DNA of 64,000 nucleotides from positions 1,844,322 through 1,908,321 of the forward strand of contig NZ_CP036273.1 of assembly GCF_007747215.1 (NCBI RefSeq). The letters are read 5' to 3'. How positions within the stretch are numbered: position 1 is the stretch's first letter; every line of letters starts with the position of its first letter. The notes beneath the pieces are model-generated. The model worked only from the letters and a program-made list of their open reading frames with translations. It did not search any database and was not told where the DNA came from. The position numbers and the translations under genes are program-made. Shown here piece after piece: positions 408 through 11,550 of the stretch. Source of the DNA: Urbifossiella limnaea. GTDB lineage: Bacteria > Planctomycetota > Planctomycetia > Gemmatales > Gemmataceae.

Positions 408-2447
408 ATGCGTGCCCGCTTCCTCCTCCTCGCCAGCCTCCTCGCCGTCGGCTGCGGTCGCGCCAGCCCCGACGCGGGCAAGCAGCCCGGAACCCCGGCG
501 CAGCCGGCCGACAACCCGAACGCCGACGTCGGCCCCCCGCTCTACGCGTCTAAGGCGGACGTGAAGGTGCCGCTGGAGCCGTTCACCGGCCGCGAGCCGC
601 TGATCGTCCCGAACTGCACCGTGCAGTACGAGGAGCGGCAGACGGTGTCGGCCGAGGTGGACGGCACCATCGAGCTGCTGGCCGTCCGCGACGACGGTAT
701 CCCCGCCGGCGACGTGAACCTCGTCTACCACCCGCGCGACCTGGCCGGGCTCAAGCAGGTCACGGTGAAGGGGAAGGACGGCAGGAACGAGGTGATCTAC
801 GACCCGGCGGAACTGGCCAAGCTGCCGAAGTACCGCCGGCTCAAGGAGGGCGACACGGTCAAGGCCGGGCAACTCATTACCATGCTCGACGACCAGCTCT
901 TCCAGGCTAGGAAGAAGGCCGCGATCGCGTCCGAGAAGGCCGCCGGCGAGGTCATCAAGTCGGCGAGCAAGGGCGTGGAACTGACGATGGAGAAGTTGGA
1001 CCTGACCAAGAAGGCAGAGGGCGGCACGTCGCGGGGGGACATTCTCCAGGACCAGATCACGCTGACGCGCTTCCAGGAGAACCTGGCCCAGGCGGCGCAG
1101 TCCATCGCCAAGGCCGTCTCCGAGTTGGAGGAGGCGCAGGTGATGATCCTGAAGCACCGCATCTACAGCAAGATCAACGGGAACGTGCGGGCCAAGAGCA
1201 AGCACCCCGGCGAGTTCGTGAAGGCCGGCGAGAAAATCTTGGAGATCCAGGGCACCGACCAGGTGCGGCTCGAAGGGTTCCTCGACGTGCAGTACGCCGG
1301 CCTCGTCCGCCGCGGCATGCAGGTGACCGTCGAGCCGGCCATCCCCAGCGCCCCGACCAAGACGCTGCCGCTGCACAAGGCCGCCGTCACCGGGCTGGCC
1401 GTGTCGGCCGATCCGGCCAGGCCGATCGTCGTGTCCGTCAGCGCCGACGGCACCGGCCGGGCGTGGGACGCCACCACGCCGAACGGGGCCGCGGTCAGCC
1501 TCACGCACCCGGTCGCCGTCCGCAGCGTGGCGTGCAGCCCGGCCGGCGTCCCGGCCGTGGCCGTCACCGGCGCCGACGACGGCAAGCTCCGCGTCTTCGA
1601 CGTGTCCAAGGCCGACGGCATCCCGAGCGACGGCAAGGAGCTGGACAAGGCCCACGCCGCCGCCGTGGGCGCCATCGCGTTCAGCCCGGACGGCAAGTTC
1701 CTGGCGACCGCCGCCGGCCGCGACGTGTGGGTGTGGGACGCGACCGCGTGGAAGCACCTGTACTCGCTGTCGGCGAACGAGCACCGCGACGCGGTGACGA
1801 GCCTCCAGTTCACGCCGCAGGGGACGCTCGTCACGGCGTCGCGCGACCGCAGCCTGAAGGTGTGGAAGCTCGGCACCGAGAAGGCCGCGGTGACCCGCAC
1901 CATCGACCACCGCACCGGCGCCGTGGACGTGCTCGGCGTGTCGTCGGACGGCAGCCGGGTGGTGTTCGACCACGACAAGAACCGCCTCGACCTGCTCTGC
2001 CTGGCCGACCGGCAGACGGCCGGCACGGTGCAGAACGTCGGGCCGACGGCGACGTTCGCGGCGCTGGCCGTGTTCAACCGCGACGACTCGCTGCTGCTGA
2101 CGGCCGGCGGCGAGGGCGAGCTGAAGGGCGGCATCCAGGTGTGGACGGTGCCGCCGGCCGGCGGCCGCGCCGCCGAGGCCGCCCGCCTGTTCACCCCCGG
2201 CCGCGTCGCCGTGACGGCCGCCGAGTTCAGCCCGACGGCGCAGCACAAGTTCCTCGCGGTCGGCACCGAGCGCGGCACCGTCCACCTGTGGACGGCGCCG
2301 GCGACGCGGAAGGCGTACACCGGCACGGTGGAGTACGTGGACGCCTCGGACAACCGGCAGGTGACGGTCCGCGTGATCATGGACAACCGCGAGCTGGGCC
2401 TGCTCGACCGCTCCGGCGCCACCGTTGTCATCAACCCGGGCCAGTAA
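408..2447 (+). CDS. HlyD-type adaptor lipoprotein fused to a WD40 propeller
   Basis: A 679-residue protein. The start at MRARFLLLASLLAVGCG gives a lipoprotein-like signal peptide with Cys near residue 16, and a GAGGGA ribosome site lies just upstream. The longer open frame starting at 276 runs through an inverted repeat and was rejected. Residues about 60-310 look like a periplasmic adaptor: a barrel-sandwich half, a Lys/Glu-rich helical hairpin, and the returning half near KINGNVRAKSKHPGEF. From about 320, WD40 repeats follow (for example HAAAVGAIAFSPDGKFLATA, then VWVWD, and HRDAVTSLQFTPQGTLVTAS, then LKVWK). The propeller is probably a protein-binding platform on the adaptor. The cargo is unknown. 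The M50-HlyD gene follows after 90 bases. Confidence 0.75.
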   Translation: MRARFLLLASLLAVGCGRASPDAGKQPGTPAQPADNPNADVGPPLYASKADVKVPLEPFTGREPLIVPNCTVQYEERQTVSAEVDGTIELLAVRDDGIPAGDVNLVYHPRDLAGLKQVTVKGKDGRNEVIYDPAELAKLPKYRRLKEGDTVKAGQLITMLDDQLFQARKKAAIASEKAAGEVIKSASKGVELTMEKLDLTKKAEGGTSRGDILQDQITLTRFQENLAQAAQSIAKAVSELEEAQVMILKHRIYSKINGNVRAKSKHPGEFVKAGEKILEIQGTDQVRLEGFLDVQYAGLVRRGMQVTVEPAIPSAPTKTLPLHKAAVTGLAVSADPARPIVVSVSADGTGRAWDATTPNGAAVSLTHPVAVRSVACSPAGVPAVAVTGADDGKLRVFDVSKADGIPSDGKELDKAHAAAVGAIAFSPDGKFLATAAGRDVWVWDATAWKHLYSLSANEHRDAVTSLQFTPQGTLVTASRDRSLKVWKLGTEKAAVTRTIDHRTGAVDVLGVSSDGSRVVFDHDKNRLDLLCLADRQTAGTVQNVGPTATFAALAVFNRDDSLLLTAGGEGELKGGIQVWTVPPAGGRAAEAARLFTPGRVAVTAAEFSPTAQHKFLAVGTERGTVHLWTAPATRKAYTGTVEYVDASDNRQVTVRVIMDNRELGLLDRSGATVVINPGQ

Positions 2448-2449
2448 CC

Positions 2450-2522
2450 AGGGGACACGGAGACAGGGGTCAGGTGACACAGCGGTGTCACACGGCGTCC
2501 TGTCTCCTGTTTCCCGTCCCCT
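2450..2522. repeat. Imperfect inverted repeat with 7-bp hairpin core
   Basis: The gap between the two export genes is almost entirely self-complementary. The left side (AGGGGACACGGAGACAGG from 2450) returns inverted near 2499-2522, with an insertion. In the middle is a perfect hairpin GTGACAC-AGCG-GTGTCAC (2474-2491). It lies between co-directional genes, so read-through attenuation is possible, but there is no T-tract. Confidence 0.6.
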
Positions 2523-2537
2523 GCCTCCCGAGCGACC

Positions 2538-4799
2538 ATGGACCTCACCACCAACCTCAACAACCCGGCGGAGCGGCGGAAGCAGGTCCGCCTCAAGGTC
2601 CGGCCGGACCTGCAGGTCTTCGAGCAGAAGTACGAGGGGAAGGGGTTCCACGTCGTCAAGGACCCCGTGTGCCTCCGCTACTACCGGTTCAACAAGCAGG
2701 AGTACTTCGTCTTCAGCCTGTTCGACGGCCAGCACACCATGGAGCAGGTGCGCGACCGGTTCGAGGAGGAGTTCACGCCGCAGCGGCTGGAACAACAGGA
2801 CTTGGAGAGCTTCGCCCGGCAGCTGGTGACGGCCGGGCTCGTGCAGCACGAGCAGGCGGGGGCGGGCAAGCACCTTTTCCATCGCCGCGCGAAGCAGCGC
2901 CGCATGAAGCGGCTGGCGACGGTCACCAACATCCTGTACATGAAGATTCCGGTCTTCGACCCGGACCGCATCCTGGTGTGGATGCACAAGTACCTGTGGT
3001 GGATCTTCACCACCGCGTTCTTCGCCGTGAGCGTGCTGTTCATGCTCTCGGCGGTGCTGCACGTGACGCTGCACTTCAACACGTTCTACGCCAAGCTCCC
3101 GGCGTACCAGGAGTTCTTCACCTGGAACTCCGTGCTGTACATGTGGCTGTCCCTCGGCGCGGTGAAGATCATCCACGAGTTCGGGCACGGGCTGTCGTGT
3201 AAAGCCTTCGGCGGCGAGAGCCACGAGATGGGCGTCTTGCTCATGTGCCTCAGCCCGGCGCTGTACTGCAACGTCACCGACGCCTGGACGCTGGCCGACA
3301 AGTGGAAGCGGATCATCATCAGCTTCGCCGGCATTTACGTGGAGCTGGTGATCGCCGCGGCCGCGACGTTCGTGTGGTGGTACACGCCGGCGTACCCGTT
3401 CGTGAACAACGTGGCGCTGGCCTTGATGGTGCTGTGTTCGGTGTCCACGGTGGTGTTCAACGCCAACCCGCTGATGCGGTTCGACGGGTACTACATCCTG
3501 GCCGACTGGCTGGAAATCCCGAACCTCCGCGAGAAGGCCAACCGCTACCTGAACAACCTGTTCCTGGAAAAGTGCCTGGGCGTCGAGGTGCCGCCGGAGG
3601 CGTACATGGCCCCGAGCCGCAAGATCCTGTTCGTCACCTACGCGGTCGTGAGCTGGGTGTACCGCTGGGTGGTGACGTTCAGCATCCTGTGGTTCCTGGC
3701 CGACCTGCTCGGGCCGAAGCTCAAGATCCTCAGCCAGATGCTGGCGGTGATGTCGCTGCTGTCCATCTTCGTCTGGCCGACGTACCGGGTCGTGAAAAAC
3801 ATCAGTCAACGGGGGCGACTGCCGGACATGAAAGCGCCACGCGTCTACGTCACGATCGCCGTGTTCAGCGCCCTGCTCGCCGCGTTCTTCTTCGTGCCGC
3901 TGCCGGTCAGCCGGGTCCACGAGACCGGCCTGTTGAGCATCGACCCGGGCCACGCCGAGGCCGTTCTCCTGCCCGAGCCGGCGCGGCTTGTGCGCGCCGA
4001 GCCCGGCGCCCGCCCCGGCCGGCAGGTCCGCACCGGCGACCTGCTCGCCACCTTCCAGAGCGAGCAGCTGGAGGTCGAGCTGGCGGCCGCGGTCAGCGAC
4101 CAGTCCGAACAGCGGCGGACGTTCGAGGACCTGACCCGCGCCGTCTCCGAGCACCGCGGGCGGATCGACGACGACTCCCTGAAGGGCTACGAGCAGCAGG
4201 CCCGCGACGCCGAGGAAAAGGCGCGCACGGCCGGCGAGCGGGTGGCCCTGCTGGCCCGCCGGCAGAAGCGGCTGGCCGAGATCCGGGCGCCGCGCGACGG
4301 CATGGTCGCCACCGCCCCGAAGGCCGACGAGGCCGGCAAGCTGTTCGACCGCGGGTACAACGAGAACCAGCCGGTGTTCCTGGTCGGCGACCCGACGAAG
4401 CTCGTGCTGCGGGTGCCGGTGACGCCGCAGGAGTACCGCGTCCTGAAGGAAGACTTGCCGGCGCGCGGCGAGCTGGACGTGACGCTCTACGTGCAGGGCC
4501 GCAGCGACCGCGAGTTCCACGGCAAGGTGCGGCGACTCCCCGACCAGAACGCGGCGTCGGTGCCGATCCAGCTGACGCAGCGCGGCGGCGGCCCGCTGGC
4601 GGTGAAGCCCGACGCCGACCCGAACGTGCTGGTGCCGCTCGCGCAGACTTACCTGGTGGAGGTCGAGCTGACCGACCCGGACGGCTCGCTGAAGCCGGGC
4701 CAGCTGGCGTCGGCGAAAGTCCACGCGAAGTGGCGGAGTGGCGCGTGGTGGGTGGGCAAGACGCTGGCGAACGCCCTCGACATCGGGCTGTTCCGCTGA
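2538..4799 (+). CDS. PqqD-like / M50 site-2 protease / HlyD fusion protein
   Basis: A 753-residue membrane protein with three parts. Residues 1-110 resemble a PqqD-like winged-helix domain (LFDGQHTMEQV, then a helical segment). Residues about 140-440 hold several membrane segments with the zinc-protease motif HEFGH (H213, E214, H217) and NPLMRFDGYY, whose D316 is the third ligand of site-2 proteases. Residues about 450-750 form an HlyD-like adaptor with a helical hairpin and a return strand near RAPRDGMVATAP. In planctomycetes such fusions sit in type-1-like export or peptide maturation loci. With the adaptor-WD40 lipoprotein just upstream it probably forms an envelope export or proteolysis machine. 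No ABC ATPase is visible. The catalytic residues are intact. Confidence 0.85.
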   Translation: MDLTTNLNNPAERRKQVRLKVRPDLQVFEQKYEGKGFHVVKDPVCLRYYRFNKQEYFVFSLFDGQHTMEQVRDRFEEEFTPQRLEQQDLESFARQLVTAGLVQHEQAGAGKHLFHRRAKQRRMKRLATVTNILYMKIPVFDPDRILVWMHKYLWWIFTTAFFAVSVLFMLSAVLHVTLHFNTFYAKLPAYQEFFTWNSVLYMWLSLGAVKIIHEFGHGLSCKAFGGESHEMGVLLMCLSPALYCNVTDAWTLADKWKRIIISFAGIYVELVIAAAATFVWWYTPAYPFVNNVALALMVLCSVSTVVFNANPLMRFDGYYILADWLEIPNLREKANRYLNNLFLEKCLGVEVPPEAYMAPSRKILFVTYAVVSWVYRWVVTFSILWFLADLLGPKLKILSQMLAVMSLLSIFVWPTYRVVKNISQRGRLPDMKAPRVYVTIAVFSALLAAFFFVPLPVSRVHETGLLSIDPGHAEAVLLPEPARLVRAEPGARPGRQVRTGDLLATFQSEQLEVELAAAVSDQSEQRRTFEDLTRAVSEHRGRIDDDSLKGYEQQARDAEEKARTAGERVALLARRQKRLAEIRAPRDGMVATAPKADEAGKLFDRGYNENQPVFLVGDPTKLVLRVPVTPQEYRVLKEDLPARGELDVTLYVQGRSDREFHGKVRRLPDQNAASVPIQLTQRGGGPLAVKPDADPNVLVPLAQTYLVEVELTDPDGSLKPGQLASAKVHAKWRSGAWWVGKTLANALDIGLFR

Positions 4800-5522: not shown

Positions 5523-5855
5523 TCACGCCTTCTTCTTCGCCCCGTCGGCCTTCTTCGCGCCGCCGGAGTCGGCTTTCGCCGCCGGCGCCGCCTCGGTCTT
5601 GGTTTCGGTCTTCGTCTCGGCGGGCTTCGACTCCGCCGCCGGCGCGTCGTCGGCCGGCTTCTTCTGGCCGCCGCGGCCGTAGTCCGTCTCGTAGAATCCG
5701 GAGCCCTTGAAGATGATGGCCCCGCCGCCGCCGAACAGGCGCTCGAGCTTGTTCTTTTTGCACGCCGGGCACTTCGTCAGCACCGGGGCGCTGAACGACT
5801 GCAACTCTTCGAACGTGTGGCCGCAGCCGTGGCACTTGTAGTCGTAGGTGGGCAT
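5523..5855 (-). CDS. FmdB-family zinc ribbon protein
   Basis: 110 residues starting MPTYDYKCHGCGHTFE, the classic FmdB/CxxC zinc-ribbon opening, with cysteine pairs C8/C11 and C29/C32. After ERLFGGGGAIIFKGSGFYETDY, which is conserved in the family, comes a tail of about 45 residues rich in Ala, Lys and Glu that is low complexity and probably disordered. FmdB proteins are putative regulators of unclear function. The gene starts 2 bases after the grpE stop, suggesting translational coupling with the chaperone genes. Confidence 0.9.
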   Translation of the reverse strand: MPTYDYKCHGCGHTFEELQSFSAPVLTKCPACKKNKLERLFGGGGAIIFKGSGFYETDYGRGGQKKPADDAPAAESKPAETKTETKTEAAPAAKADSGGAKKADGAKKKA

Positions 5856-5857
5856 GT

Positions 5858-6391
5858 TTACTCGCTGCTCCCGCCGGCGGGCGGCTGCGCCGCCACCACC
5901 ACCATCGCCGGGCGGAGCACCTTGTCGTGGAGGGTGAAGCCGGTGCCGACCACCTGGGTAACGGCCCCCGGCTCGAAGTCGTTGGTCGGCTGCTGCGACA
6001 CCGCCTGGTGGACGTTCGGGTCGAACGCGGTGCCCGCGGCGGCCTCGATCCGCGCCACGCCGTAGCGCTTCAGCACGTCGAGGAACTGGCTCGCCGTGAC
6101 CGACACGCCGACCGCCAGCGGGCCGGTGTCGCCGGCGGCCTTCGCGGCGGCCGACGCGCGCTCCAGGTTGTCGAGTGCGCCGAGCAGGTCGCGGATGAGC
6201 CCCTCGGCGGCGAACTTCCGCTGGGCGTCGGCGTCGCGGAGCATCCGCTTGCGGGCGTTCTCGAAGTCGGCCAGCCGCAGCTTGTAGTTCGCCACCTCGT
6301 CCTCGGCCGCGGCGAGCTTCGCGCGCACGGCGTCGAACTCGGCGAACGGGACGGCGTCGACAGGGATGCGGTCGTCGGGCAGGTCGGCCAT
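5858..6391 (-). CDS. grpE: GrpE nucleotide exchange factor
   Basis: 177 residues, short for GrpE. A coiled-coil N-terminal half (ANYKLRLADFENARKRMLRD) is followed by the beta-domain signature GVARIEAAAGTAFDPNVHQA and then VGTGFTLHDKVLRPAMVVVA. GrpE releases ADP from DnaK and acts as a thermosensor. It lies 16 bases downstream of dnaJ; no dnaK is in this cluster. The N-terminal extension seen in many homologues is missing, leaving only about 15 residues before the helix. Confidence 0.95.
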   Translation of the reverse strand: MADLPDDRIPVDAVPFAEFDAVRAKLAAAEDEVANYKLRLADFENARKRMLRDADAQRKFAAEGLIRDLLGALDNLERASAAAKAAGDTGPLAVGVSVTASQFLDVLKRYGVARIEAAAGTAFDPNVHQAVSQQPTNDFEPGAVTQVVGTGFTLHDKVLRPAMVVVAAQPPAGGSSE

Positions 6392-6407
6392 CGGCGGGGT
6401 CCTGTTA

Positions 6408-7544
6408 CTACTTCTCGTCCGTGGTTGGAGGGGCGTCGCCGCCCAGAAGGTCCTTCAGTTTCCCGAAGAACCCCTTGCGCGGGCCGCTCACGCTCGTCTT
6501 CGTCGTCTCGGCCAGCTTCCGCAGCAGTTCCTCCTGCTCGGGCGTGAGGCTGGTCGGCGTCTCGACCACCACCTGCACCAGGAGGTCGCCCTTGCGGCCG
6601 CCGCGGGGGTTGGGCATGCCGTGGCCGAAGACGCGGAACACCTCGTGCGTCTGCGTGCCGCGGGCCAGGTCGTGGACGACCTTCTGGCCGGTGAGCGTGG
6701 TGATTTCGATCGGCCCGCCGAGCGCGGCCTGCGAGAACGACACCGGCCACTGGCACACCAGGTTGTGCCCGTCGCGGTGGAAGAACTTGTGGTCGCGGAC
6801 GCGGATGACGAACTCCAGGTCGCCGCGCGGGGCGCCCGGGTCGCCGGCGTCACCCTCGCCGGCGTAGCGGATGCGGTTGCCGGTATCGACGCCGGCGGGA
6901 ATCTCGACGTCGAGCGTCCGCCGGGCCTCGACCCGGCCGCGGCCGCGGCACCCGCCGCACGGGTCGGTCACGACCTGCCCGCGCCCCTCGCACGCCCGGC
7001 ACGTCTGCTGGACGGAGATGAACCCCTGGTTGAGCAGCACCGCCCCCTGGCCGCCGCAGCGCTTGCAGGTCGCCGGCTTCGTGCCGGCCTTCGCCCCGCT
7101 GCCATTGCAGGGGGCGCAGAACTCCTCGCGGGAAACCGTCTGCGACTTCGTGACGCCGGTGGCGGCCTCGACCAGGTCGATGTCGATGACGGTCTGTAGG
7201 TCGCGCCCGGGGCGGGGCCCGCCGCGCTGCCGGCGCCCGCCGCCGCCGCCGCCGAACAAGCCGCCGAACAGGTCGCCGAACAGGTCGCCGAGGTCGACGC
7301 CTTGCCCGCCCCCGCCGCCCTGCAGGCCGGCGTGGCCGTGGCGGTCGTAGACGGCGCGCTTCTGCGGGTCGCGCAGCACCTCGTAGGCCTCGGTCACTTC
7401 CTTGAAGCGGACCTCGGCCTCGGCGTCCCCGACGTTCCGGTCGGGGTGGTGCTGCATCGCCAGCTTCCGGTACGACTTGGTGATCTCCACCTCGGTCGCC
7501 GTCCGGGTGACGCTCAGCACCTCGTAGTAGTCGCGCTTCGCCAT
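6408..7544 (-). CDS. dnaJ: DnaJ (Hsp40) co-chaperone
   Basis: 378 residues, the usual length. The J domain has HPD at residues 33-35 (MQHHPDRN). A Gly-rich linker follows (GGGGGGRRQRGG), then four zinc motifs of the form CxxCxGxG (CAPCNGSG, CKRCGGQG, CRACEGRG, CGGCRGRG) and the C-terminal substrate-binding domains. It stimulates DnaK ATPase and delivers substrates. It is transcribed in the order groEL-groES-groEL-dnaJ-grpE. A 22-bp palindrome in the 134-base gap separates it from the second groEL. Confidence 0.96.
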   Translation of the reverse strand: MAKRDYYEVLSVTRTATEVEITKSYRKLAMQHHPDRNVGDAEAEVRFKEVTEAYEVLRDPQKRAVYDRHGHAGLQGGGGGQGVDLGDLFGDLFGGLFGGGGGGRRQRGGPRPGRDLQTVIDIDLVEAATGVTKSQTVSREEFCAPCNGSGAKAGTKPATCKRCGGQGAVLLNQGFISVQQTCRACEGRGQVVTDPCGGCRGRGRVEARRTLDVEIPAGVDTGNRIRYAGEGDAGDPGAPRGDLEFVIRVRDHKFFHRDGHNLVCQWPVSFSQAALGGPIEITTLTGQKVVHDLARGTQTHEVFRVFGHGMPNPRGGRKGDLLVQVVVETPTSLTPEQEELLRKLAETTKTSVSGPRKGFFGKLKDLLGGDAPPTTDEK

Positions 7545-7606
7545 CGGATCAGAGTTGCCAGTGGACAGGGGCCGGTGGCCAGTCGAAACACCCTTGCATC
7601 ATATGA

Positions 7607-7664
7607 GCAGTGGGCAGTGGGCGGTGAATCCGGTTGCCCGTCTTCACCGCCCACTGCCCACTGC
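7607..7664. repeat. Perfect 22-bp inverted repeat, 14-nt loop
   Basis: Arms 7607-7628 and 7643-7664 are exactly complementary and are built from repeated GCAGTGG-type units (GCAGTGGGCAGTGGGCGG, then TGAA). It lies between groEL and dnaJ on the minus strand, so it could end or attenuate transcription after groEL or protect the mRNA 3' end. A looser CCAGTGG-type stretch lies next to it near 7558-7585. Confidence 0.8.
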
Positions 7665-7678
7665 CCCCTGCCCACGAC

Positions 7679-9310
<1,632 letters not shown>

Positions 9311-9316
9311 TTGATT

Positions 9317-9443
9317 AGTTCCGAGTTTCGAGTTTGAAGTTTCGAGTTTGGAGGCGCCGAGTTCCGAGCCGGGTCGGCATCACCGCCCCGCGGTTCACCT
9401 CGCGGGGCGGGAACTCGAAACCCGAAACTCGGAACTCGAAACT
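9317..9443. repeat. Long imperfect inverted repeat with inner 10-bp hairpin
   Basis: Outer arms 9317-9349 and 9411-9443 pair with 6 mismatches in 33. Both are tandem variants of the unit CGAGTTTC/GAAACTCG. Inside is a perfect 10-bp hairpin CCGCCCCGCG (9383-9392) and CGCGGGGCGG (9401-9410). It fills the groES-groEL gap, and the right arm reaches the groES stop codon. Confidence 0.75.
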
Positions 9444-9753
9444 ACTTCACCAGCTTGGCGAGGATGTCGCTCTCGCGCAGGATCTTCAGCTCCTTGCTGC
9501 TGACCTCCACGTCCGAGCCGCTGTACTTGCCGTAGATCACAGTGTCGCCGACCTTCACGCCGACGGCCGTCCGCACGCCCTTGTCGGACAGCTTGCCGGG
9601 GCCGACGGCCACGACCTTGCCCTGCTGCGGCTTCTGCTTGGCGGTGTCCGGCAGCAGGATGCCGCCGGCGGTCTTCTCCTCGGCGTCGGTCGGCTCCACC
9701 ACGACGCGGTCGTCGAGCGGGCGGAGGCTCAGGGGGGCGTCCTTCTTGGCCAT
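9442..9753 (-). CDS. groES: GroES co-chaperonin
   Basis: 103 residues from the ATG at MAKKDAPLSLRPLDDRVVVE. A GTG four codons earlier is possible, but its second codon supplies the GGAG ribosome site for the ATG, so the ATG is preferred. The mobile-loop region (EEKTAGGILLPDTA) and roof (VGPGKL) are present, and the C-terminal strand GSDVEVSSKELKILRESDIL is slightly variant. GroES caps GroEL rings. It is the only groES seen here and is flanked by two groEL genes, so it may serve both. Confidence 0.96.
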   Translation of the reverse strand: MAKKDAPLSLRPLDDRVVVEPTDAEEKTAGGILLPDTAKQKPQQGKVVAVGPGKLSDKGVRTAVGVKVGDTVIYGKYSGSDVEVSSKELKILRESDILAKLVK

Positions 9754-9802
9754 CGGGGGCTCCACGTATCTGAGAGTGAGGGTGTGTGTGTTCGTGTGAG
9801 AA

Positions 9803-9826
9803 GCCCACCCGCAGCGGCGGGTGGGC
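9803..9826. terminator. 10-bp hairpin between groEL and groES
   Basis: GCCCACCCGC-AGCG-GCGGGTGGGC is a perfect stem with a tetraloop, 12 bases beyond the groEL stop on the minus strand and without a T-tract. It may lower read-through into groES or stabilise the groEL message. Its AAGCCCACCCG core resembles the palindromes at 15401 and 17672. Confidence 0.65.
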
Positions 9827-9837
9827 CGAGTACCGCG

Positions 9838-11550
9838 TTACATCATGCCGCCCATGCCGCCCATGCCGCCCATCCCACCGCCCATGCCGTGGTCGTCGTG
9901 GTGGTGGTCGCCGCCGCCGGCCTTCTTCGGCTCGGGGATGTCGGCGATCATGGCCTCGGTCGTGAGTAGCAGGCCGGCCACGCTCGCGCCGTTCTGCAGG
10001 GCGCTCCGCGTCACCTTCACCGGGTCCACCACGCCCGCCTTGCGCAGGTCGGTGTACTCGTCGGTGTCGGCGTTGTAGCCGTGGTTCTTGTCCTTCGCCT
10101 TGAGAATCTTCGAGACGACGACGGTGCCGTCCTTGCCGGCGTTCTCGGCGATCATCCGGCACGGCATCTCCAGGGCGCGGTACAGCACCCGGGCGCCCTC
10201 CGCCTCGTCGCCTTCGAGCTTCAGCTTGTCCAGCCCCTTGCGGGCGTTCAGCAGCGCCACGCCGCCGCCGGGGACGATCCCCTCGGCGATGGCGGCCTTG
10301 GTCGCGGCCAGGGCGTCCTCGTACAGCGCCTTCCGCTCCTTCATGGCCGTCTCGGTCGCGCCGCCGACCTTGATGACGGCCACGCCGCCGGCCAGCTTGG
10401 CGAGCCGCTCCTGCAGCTTCTCGCGGTCGTACTCGCTGTCCGTCTTGTCGATCTCCTTGCGGATCAGCTCGGCCCGGCCGTCGATGGCCGCCTGCTTCCC
10501 CTTGCCCTCGGTGATGGTCGTGTTCTCGGCGTCGATGCGGACGCGCTTGCAGCGGCCGAGGTAGCTCACGACCGTGGGCACCTTCTCGCCCTTCGGCCCG
10601 TCGGAGACGGCGTCGAGCTGCACGCCCAGATCCTTGAAGATCGCCTTGCCGCCGGTCAGCACGGCGATGTCTTCGAGCATGGCCTTGCGGCGGTCGCCGT
10701 AGCCGGGCGCCTTGACGGCGCAGACCTGGAGGATGCCCTTCAGCTTGTTGAGCACGAGCGTGGCCAGCGCCTCGCCCTCGAAGTCCTCGGCGATGAGGAC
10801 CATCGGCTCCTTCTGCTTGCTGGCCCACTCGAGCAGCGGGATCAGGCTCTTCACCGTGCTGACCTTCTCCTCGAAGATCAGGACGTAGGGGTTGTCGAAC
10901 TCGCAGGTGACCGACTCGGGGTTGTTCACGAAGTGCGGCGACAGGTAGCCGCGGTCGAACTGCATCCCCTGGACGACGTTCACGACCGTGTCGGCGGCCT
11001 TGCCCTCTTCCACGGTGATGACGCCGTTAGTGGCACCGACCTTCTTCATGGCCTCGGACAACTTCGAGCCGATGTCGCGGTCGTTGTTGGCCGAGATGGT
11101 GGCGACTTCGGTGATGCTCTTGGAGTCCTTCGGGTCGATCTCCTCGGCGATCTTGTGGAGCTCCTCGACCACCTTGTCGACGCCCTTCTGGATGCCGCGG
11201 ACCAGCGCCATCGGGTCGTGCCCGCCGGCAACGGCCTTGAGGCCTTCGCGGAAGATGAACTCGGCCAGCACGGTGGCGGTGGTGGTGCCGTCGCCGGCGA
11301 TGTCGGAGGTCTTGCTGGCGGCCTCCTTGACGAGCTGGGCGCCCATGTTCTCGAACGGGTCGTTGAGCTCGATGTCTTCGGCGACGGTGACGCCGTCCTT
11401 GGTGACGTTGGGGGCGCCCCAGCCCTTGTCGAGGACAGCGTTGCGGCCGCGCGGCCCGAGGGTGGAGCGGACGGCGCGGGCGAGCTTGCTGGCCCCGGCG
11501 AGGAGCTTCTGCCGGGCGTCGTCGGCGTACTGGAGTTGCTTGGCTGCCAT
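9838..11550 (-). CDS. groEL: GroEL chaperonin with His-rich GGM tail
   Basis: 570 residues, longer than the usual ~545. The extra length is an apical-domain insertion around residues 310-335 ([20 protein letters not shown]) and the tail [19 protein letters not shown] plus further GGM repeats. ATP motifs ([26 protein letters not shown]) are intact. The GGM tail is the standard chaperonin cavity floor; the HHHDDH patch could bind metal. It is the first gene of the chaperone cluster, with 289 bases of non-coding DNA upstream. No CIRCE (HrcA) operator was seen there. Confidence 0.96.

Follow-up and report, generated by a model that had tools for sequence, protein, structure and literature searches.

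In this study, we sought to determine what is accomplished by three adjoining genes of Urbifossiella limnaea that together encode three HlyD-type adaptor arms, a membrane protease and a putative leader-binding domain. The genes lie on the plus strand at the start of a 64,000-nucleotide stretch (the window; G000:C1:1844322-1908321) of the 7.8-Mb single-contig genome. A preliminary description had found it plausible that the second and third form a two-protein device that recognizes, cleaves and exports the leader-bearing products of a ribosomal-peptide pathway. We consider it likely that the trio is instead the core of an exporter that lacks an ABC transporter, encoded by a locus of the type described by Kamneva and colleagues, and that its substrates are large surface proteins bearing an LExR tag (PF07595 / LEPR-XLL).

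The third gene (2538-4799; P0002) is one open frame for a 753-residue protein, and its early reading as a fusion of a PqqD-like domain, a zinc site-2 protease and an HlyD arm held. From the single sequence, Pfam recovers Peptidase_M50 (1.9e-7, over the cut-off) and HlyD_3 (9.8e-5), together with a match to PqqD (PF05402; 0.0038) that at 18.0 bits stays below the cut-off of 23.4. When a profile built from 26 orthologues was searched against the PDB, residues 15-106 (2580-2855) matched the lasso-peptide leader-binding RRE of TfuB1 (6jx3_B, 1.7e-4), PqqD itself was matched at 0.07 (3g2b), and residues 459-706 matched MacA-type adaptors. The comparison with PqqD structures that had been suggested at the outset is thus favorable to the assignment at the level of a profile match, and the assignment is compatible with an AlphaFold model made with 15 close sequences (mean pLDDT 62.8, with low confidence in the membrane part), in which the N-terminal domain reaches a pLDDT of about 60-82 over much of its length and has an order of strands and helices that fits a winged helix. 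What this putative leader-binding domain shares with PqqD and the TfuB1 RRE is the winged-helix profile; it differs in forming one chain with a membrane protease and an HlyD arm, and in that it presumably binds the tag of a protein where the others bind RiPP leaders. The HlyD/MacA-like arm (residues about 460-745, with a hairpin at 509-580; 3915-4772) is further supported by Foldseek matches to ZneB/MacA (6e-12 to 1e-11).

Between these two parts, the protein carries both active-site motifs of M50 site-2 proteases, HExxH (HEFGH, residues 213-217; 3174-3188) and NPxxxxD(G) (within NANPLMRFDG, residues 308-317; 3459-3488). K210, H213, E214, H217, N308, P311 and D316 are invariant in the 26 orthologues, a set that includes both the present protein and ones encoded on E. 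coli plasmids. Since the catalytic residues are so conserved, the M50 domain is likely, judging by its sequence, to be an active protease.

The second gene (408-2447; P0001) is a single open frame for a 679-residue lipoprotein adaptor of the membrane-fusion type, with a signal ending in the lipobox LAVGC (408-455) whose Cys16 is invariant in a 10-row alignment. Pfam detects HlyD_3 (6e-10) and WD40 (3.4e-26), and the AlphaFold model (mean pLDDT 80) contains an HlyD alpha-hairpin at residues 163-249 (894-1154). The propeller had been placed after the HlyD arm. Its presence is borne out but its position is not, as in the model it is nested inside the beta-barrel: the WD40 repeats occupy residues 318-629 (1359-2294), between barrel strands 285-311 and 637-675. 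Propellers occur in families f1 and f2, in the same order, and in f5. They are absent from the orthologues at L064, L065, L067, L070 and L071, where the barrel is unbroken at the matching point; orthologues with such an unbroken barrel come from families f3, f4 and f8, and the shorter f6 proteins are consistent with this. Because the propeller-free barrels are intact where the propeller would sit, it is most likely an insertion into a pre-existing adaptor.

The first gene enters the window only with its 3' end (1-198), which was suspected to encode an adaptor and does have an HlyD_3 match. Upstream, its open frame spans L009:11448-14198, reaching at most about 2.55 kb before base 1, with an uncertain true start. 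Among the 17 orthologues scanned, HlyD_3 is found in 16 and a GAF domain in 11; GAF was not scored in the present member. We propose that the GAF domain and the nested propeller serve in regulation or docking and are particular to certain lineages. A small conserved uncharacterised protein (ALTRGLGDIEAxMLVEWL...; L009:11188-11709) is encoded directly upstream of the GAF/HlyD gene both here and in L054, and recurs near the trio in Gemmataceae relatives that include L054, L056 and L058. Past the trio, the minus strand of the window (5523-11550) holds a chaperone cluster that encodes a short zinc-ribbon protein, GrpE, DnaJ and two GroEL paralogues with GroES between them; one GroEL has the canonical GGM tail, and the other (7679-9310) is without GGM and ends in KVAGAVA.

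The protease gene is single-copy in this genome, is found in 54 of 59 relatives and occurs in 82 of 292 members of the phylum, chiefly in the class Planctomycetia, where families other than its own often have two or three copies. The closest loci in the public collection belong to MAGs named Gemmataceae. In most of 21 planctomycete neighbourhoods inspected the trio is clustered, and no other gene is conserved beside it across families. DUF3467 was considered as a specific partner, being linked in several loci, and was rejected, as 57 of 59 relatives have it and so do 3 of 14 control genomes.

If the trio served a RiPP pathway, the PqqD-like domain and the M50 protease would strip the leader from a small modified peptide, which the adaptors then export. 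The RRE-like domain would suit such a role, and the best NCBIfam matches of the 753-residue protein are indeed RiPP proteases, the daptide intramembrane metalloprotease daptide_HExxH (NF041824, 2.9e-55, covering the N-terminal and M50 regions) and YydH/LiaK (5e-13). The daptide match, however, leaves out the HlyD arm, both matches fall far below the curated cut-offs (188 of 300 bits and 49 of 225 bits, respectively), and RiPP genes are missing here. The upstream extension that had been recommended yielded the GAF/HlyD adaptor, but neither an ABC transporter nor a conserved small ORF of 50 residues or more. Indeed, the early statement that no transporter or precursor peptide is visible in the window can be widened: within about 8 kb of the trio in 20 relatives we found no conserved small ORF (of at least 50 residues), precursor peptide, radical-SAM or other modifying enzyme, and no ABC transporter is conserved there or in the 21 planctomycete neighbourhoods, nor does one stand beside the protease in annotated proteobacterial operons. 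The proteobacterial partners, moreover, are giant adhesin-like proteins with a LEPR-type tag, not peptides. We therefore abandon the ribosomal-peptide pathway and regard a RiPP device as very unlikely. The outline of a device for leader recognition, cleavage and export is supported, given the RRE/PqqD profile match, the invariant protease residues and the TolC and adaptor genes of Proteobacteria; that it consists of two proteins is not, as three proteins and a secondary SecA appear to be involved.

Such a locus has been described before. Kamneva, Poudel and Ward (2015; PMC4452313) reported one, distributed in Planctomycetes and Proteobacteria, that encodes M50-HlyD, GAF-HlyD and HlyD/biotin_lipoyl proteins and a secondary SecA lacking SecA_SW, and in which there is no ABC transporter. 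They regarded it as secretion-related, proposed that SecA supplies the power and the M50 protein the pore, and termed its biological role 'completely unknown'. The trio belongs to this family of loci, with its motor unlinked in this genome. Here we find the M50-HlyD protein, the adjoining HlyD/biotin_lipoyl adaptor and a SecA without SecA_SW; in place of a scored GAF-HlyD protein there is an adjoining HlyD protein, whose orthologues score for GAF in the proportion given above. The text of that paper never mentions PqqD, LEPR or WD40; it covers neither the RRE/PqqD domain, the tag and its substrates, nor the nested propeller.

The secondary SecA of this genome, which came from a 400-kb sample, is encoded on the minus strand at about C1:1954351-1956240 (L182:6030-7919), some 107 kb from the trio and 46 kb past the end of the window. 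It is 43.6% identical and has SecA_DEAD, PP_bind and P-loop domains; SecA_SW was not found in it. It is probably the unlinked motor of the module. Elsewhere, SecA2 directly adjoins the module in L068, L069 and eight alphaproteobacteria, where the genes are on plasmids. The Type B loci of E. coli, Burkholderiales and Azospirillum have no SecA2, so the SecA2 motor is not universal and these loci must use another motor or none.

What the module might export is suggested by its neighbours in Proteobacteria, where it is accompanied by TolC and adaptors. Plasmid operons with an orthologous protease encode TolC and three HlyD adaptors, and they contain a giant ORF whose annotation reads Ig-like, DUF4347, VCBS or LEPR-XLL. 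These operons bear on a further reading of the trio, as a regulated intramembrane protease (RseP/SpoIVFB-like) that senses the envelope through its HlyD and WD40 parts and exports nothing. Proteases of sigma-factor pathways belong to M50, the active site is intact and a partner has a GAF domain, all of which would agree with such a role. Three HlyD adaptors together with TolC nevertheless point to transport, the N-terminal domain is an RRE and not a PDZ domain, and linkage to an anti-sigma factor was not seen; we hold this to be the least probable of the readings. Among the operons, that of an E. coli IncF plasmid (L074) combines TolC, adaptor and M50 genes with a 13-kb DUF4347 giant, and related Citrobacter and Hafnia plasmids carry an identical-scoring arrangement; operons of this type are spread over many enterobacterial plasmids. 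Annotated tail fiber genes (about 200-300 residues) are repeatedly found close to the exporter genes and the DUF4347/LEPR-type giant at L082, L166, L167 and L169, with Azospirillum, Kosakonia (three copies) and Burkholderia as hosts.

In the proteobacterial loci with an orthologous protease whose giant ORF (4-49 kb) could be read from its N-terminus, 13 of 14 giants are tagged near that end, in the form LEPRxLLSAD or LEPRxMFDA. The regular expression used, [LFI]E[PAS]Rx[LMV][LFY][SDNA][AGT], was derived from these same loci, so that 13 of 14 is a measure of specificity and not an independent prediction. Across 760 kb (2795 six-frame ORFs of at least 100 residues) it gave 13 matches, all near the N-termini of giants with none off target, and it never matched shuffled sequence. 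The tags are EPIEPRILLSAD in Thalassospira, ETFEPRVLLSAD in Pseudosulfitobacter, EALEPRLLLSAD in Mesorhizobium, DTLEPRVLLNAD in Methylosinus and EQLEPRLLLAAD in Alisedimentitalea, the last upstream of the annotated start; ALEPRFMFDAA in two Azospirillum; and ALESRQLFDGA in E. coli, ALEARYMFDAA in Variovorax, ALEARLMFDAA in Eleftheria, SLEPRMLFDGA in Kosakonia, ALEPRVVYDAS in Burkholderia and ALEPRMMFDAA in Tistrella. The one exception is Phyllobacterium, where the neighbour of the protease is untagged; in Azospirillum B510 some 10 kb separate the protease from the tagged giant. The giants of Thalassospira, Pseudosulfitobacter, Mesorhizobium and Methylosinus exceed the curated cut-off of LEPR-XLL (NF012209), and the NCBIfam model LEPR-8K scores 28-34 bits (cut-off 17) in four giants. 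In two cases, Alisedimentitalea WP_343211605.1 (L173) and Azospirillum B510 WP_052293836.1 (L169), the annotated start lies inside or after the tag; given the in-frame tag upstream, these database N-termini look wrong.

The type of tag follows the type of locus. Loci that bear SecA2 have LLS-type tags, and those that have no SecA2 show FD-type tags, except in Thalassospira, which has an LLS-type tag and no SecA2 in the stretch that was fetched. The protease tree (in which row L161, an antisense ORF, was disregarded) splits in the same manner into LLS-tag and FD-tag groups, and in it the proteins from planctomycetes are neighbours of the LLS clade (support 88).

In planctomycetes, a tag of this kind is already on record. 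A cell-surface motif RRLxxExLExRxLLA (PF07595) is credited to Studholme (2004) as cited in PMC8567305, and in Tuwongella immobilis the variant LxLExLExRxxP occurs in 52 proteins, including 8 of the 10 longest; both are described as an N-terminal export signal with the machinery not named (PMC8567305). PF07595 and NF012209 share with the tags described here a short N-terminal ExLExRx motif on large surface proteins, and none of the papers found assigns export machinery to either. The genome of U. limnaea encodes about 45 proteins with an LExRxxPA tag, mostly LExRx[V/T]PA. A DNA pattern for LExRx[VTA]PA gave 49 matches against 7 for the reversed control, and the matches that were checked mostly lie 7-39 residues after the start. 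None of 25 tagged proteins of this genome has a Sec-like hydrophobic stretch, against a value of 2.57 for the lipoprotein adaptor. These tags are a PA variant below both model cut-offs: they score 13.9-15.3 bits with PF07595 (cut-off 25.5), and a search of the genome with NF012209 gave nothing over its cut-off because of this variant form. PF07595 aligns weakly to the matching tag residues of the Thalassospira and own-genome proteins alike. The pattern ExLExRxLL was discarded for this genome, where it gave 20 matches against 21 in the control, only three of them genuine.

It could still be that the trio exports a small molecule or just one or several proteins dedicated to it, and that LExR proteins leave by another route, the likeness of the tags being convergent. 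The trio of this genome has neither a tagged gene nor SecA2 or TolC linked to it; conserved linkage of TolC is not found in planctomycetes, and about a dozen OEP proteins are encoded elsewhere in this genome. Two MAG-like assemblies that are 93% complete (G027 and G031) have a tag excess and DUF3467 with no protease found, possibly an assembly gap, and six genomes (G018, G029, G011, G020, G028 and G036) have the protease without an LExRxxPA excess, and so must use other tag variants or have few substrates. Phylum-wide pattern counts were set aside as a test of co-occurrence, since outside Gemmataceae the signal is lost in control noise. On the other side, the protease is single-copy here and yet present across the class, its clades track the tag type, and the residues and spacing of the tag are alike in planctomycetes and Proteobacteria. 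Moreover, a tagged ORF does adjoin the module in two planctomycete loci, L068 (QQLESRQLLDGA) and L069 (EALEVREVFDAA), with a DUF3467 gene in between, and in G022 the protease, DUF3467 and the tag excess are missing together, as expected if the module exports tagged proteins. We judge a dedicated substrate to be unlikely, if less so than the RiPP device. The tagged ORF is c11 in both L068 and L069, and that of L069 has an unusual multi-domain make-up: a prolyl isomerase domain of the cyclophilin type (2.6e-32) is joined by a thioredoxin-like stretch and by matches to cadherin/Ig and, weakly, to cohesin/dockerin.

We therefore favour the tag exporter: the protease of its relatives adjoins LExR-tagged giants whose export route is unassigned, and the device is thus probably the exporter of the tag. 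Tag binding, cleavage, coupling to SecA and the route itself are inferred. The three genes would make up the inner-membrane and periplasmic core. The RRE/PqqD domain may bind the LExR tag in the cytoplasm while the secondary SecA drives the unfolded chain forward; the membrane-embedded M50 part would cleave the tag, probably near the conserved Ala that follows it, and/or form part of the passage; and the three HlyD-type arms with an unlinked TolC-family protein could supply the periplasmic and outer-membrane conduit. Type I secretion (HlyB-HlyD-TolC) resembles this arrangement in its HlyD-type adaptors and, in proteobacterial operons, in TolC, but it uses an ABC transporter where we find an M50 protease and SecA2, and its signal is C-terminal, whereas the tag is N-terminal.

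More tentatively, this may be a distinct SecA2-driven protein secretion system without an ABC transporter, in which the RRE-M50 protein recognizes and cleaves a short, non-hydrophobic N-terminal LExR tag and which exports dozens of giants per planctomycete cell and giant adhesins in Proteobacteria, including those encoded on E. coli plasmids. The locus and the tag were each known; as far as the available papers show, the matched pair is new.

Altogether, the papers found describe a tag without machinery and a locus without a substrate, and linking the two makes each directly testable. The propeller grafted within the adaptor barrel is a clear example of a domain that particular lineages have inserted into a secretion apparatus. 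If our reading is true, it would account for the way in which the phylum's giant proteins, which reach about 10,000 residues in T. immobilis and have no Sec signal, get out of the cell, and it would widen the role of leader-peptide recognition domains beyond peptide natural products to include protein secretion. One system would then also carry the giant adhesins that plasmids encode in rhizobia, marine alphaproteobacteria and enterobacteria.
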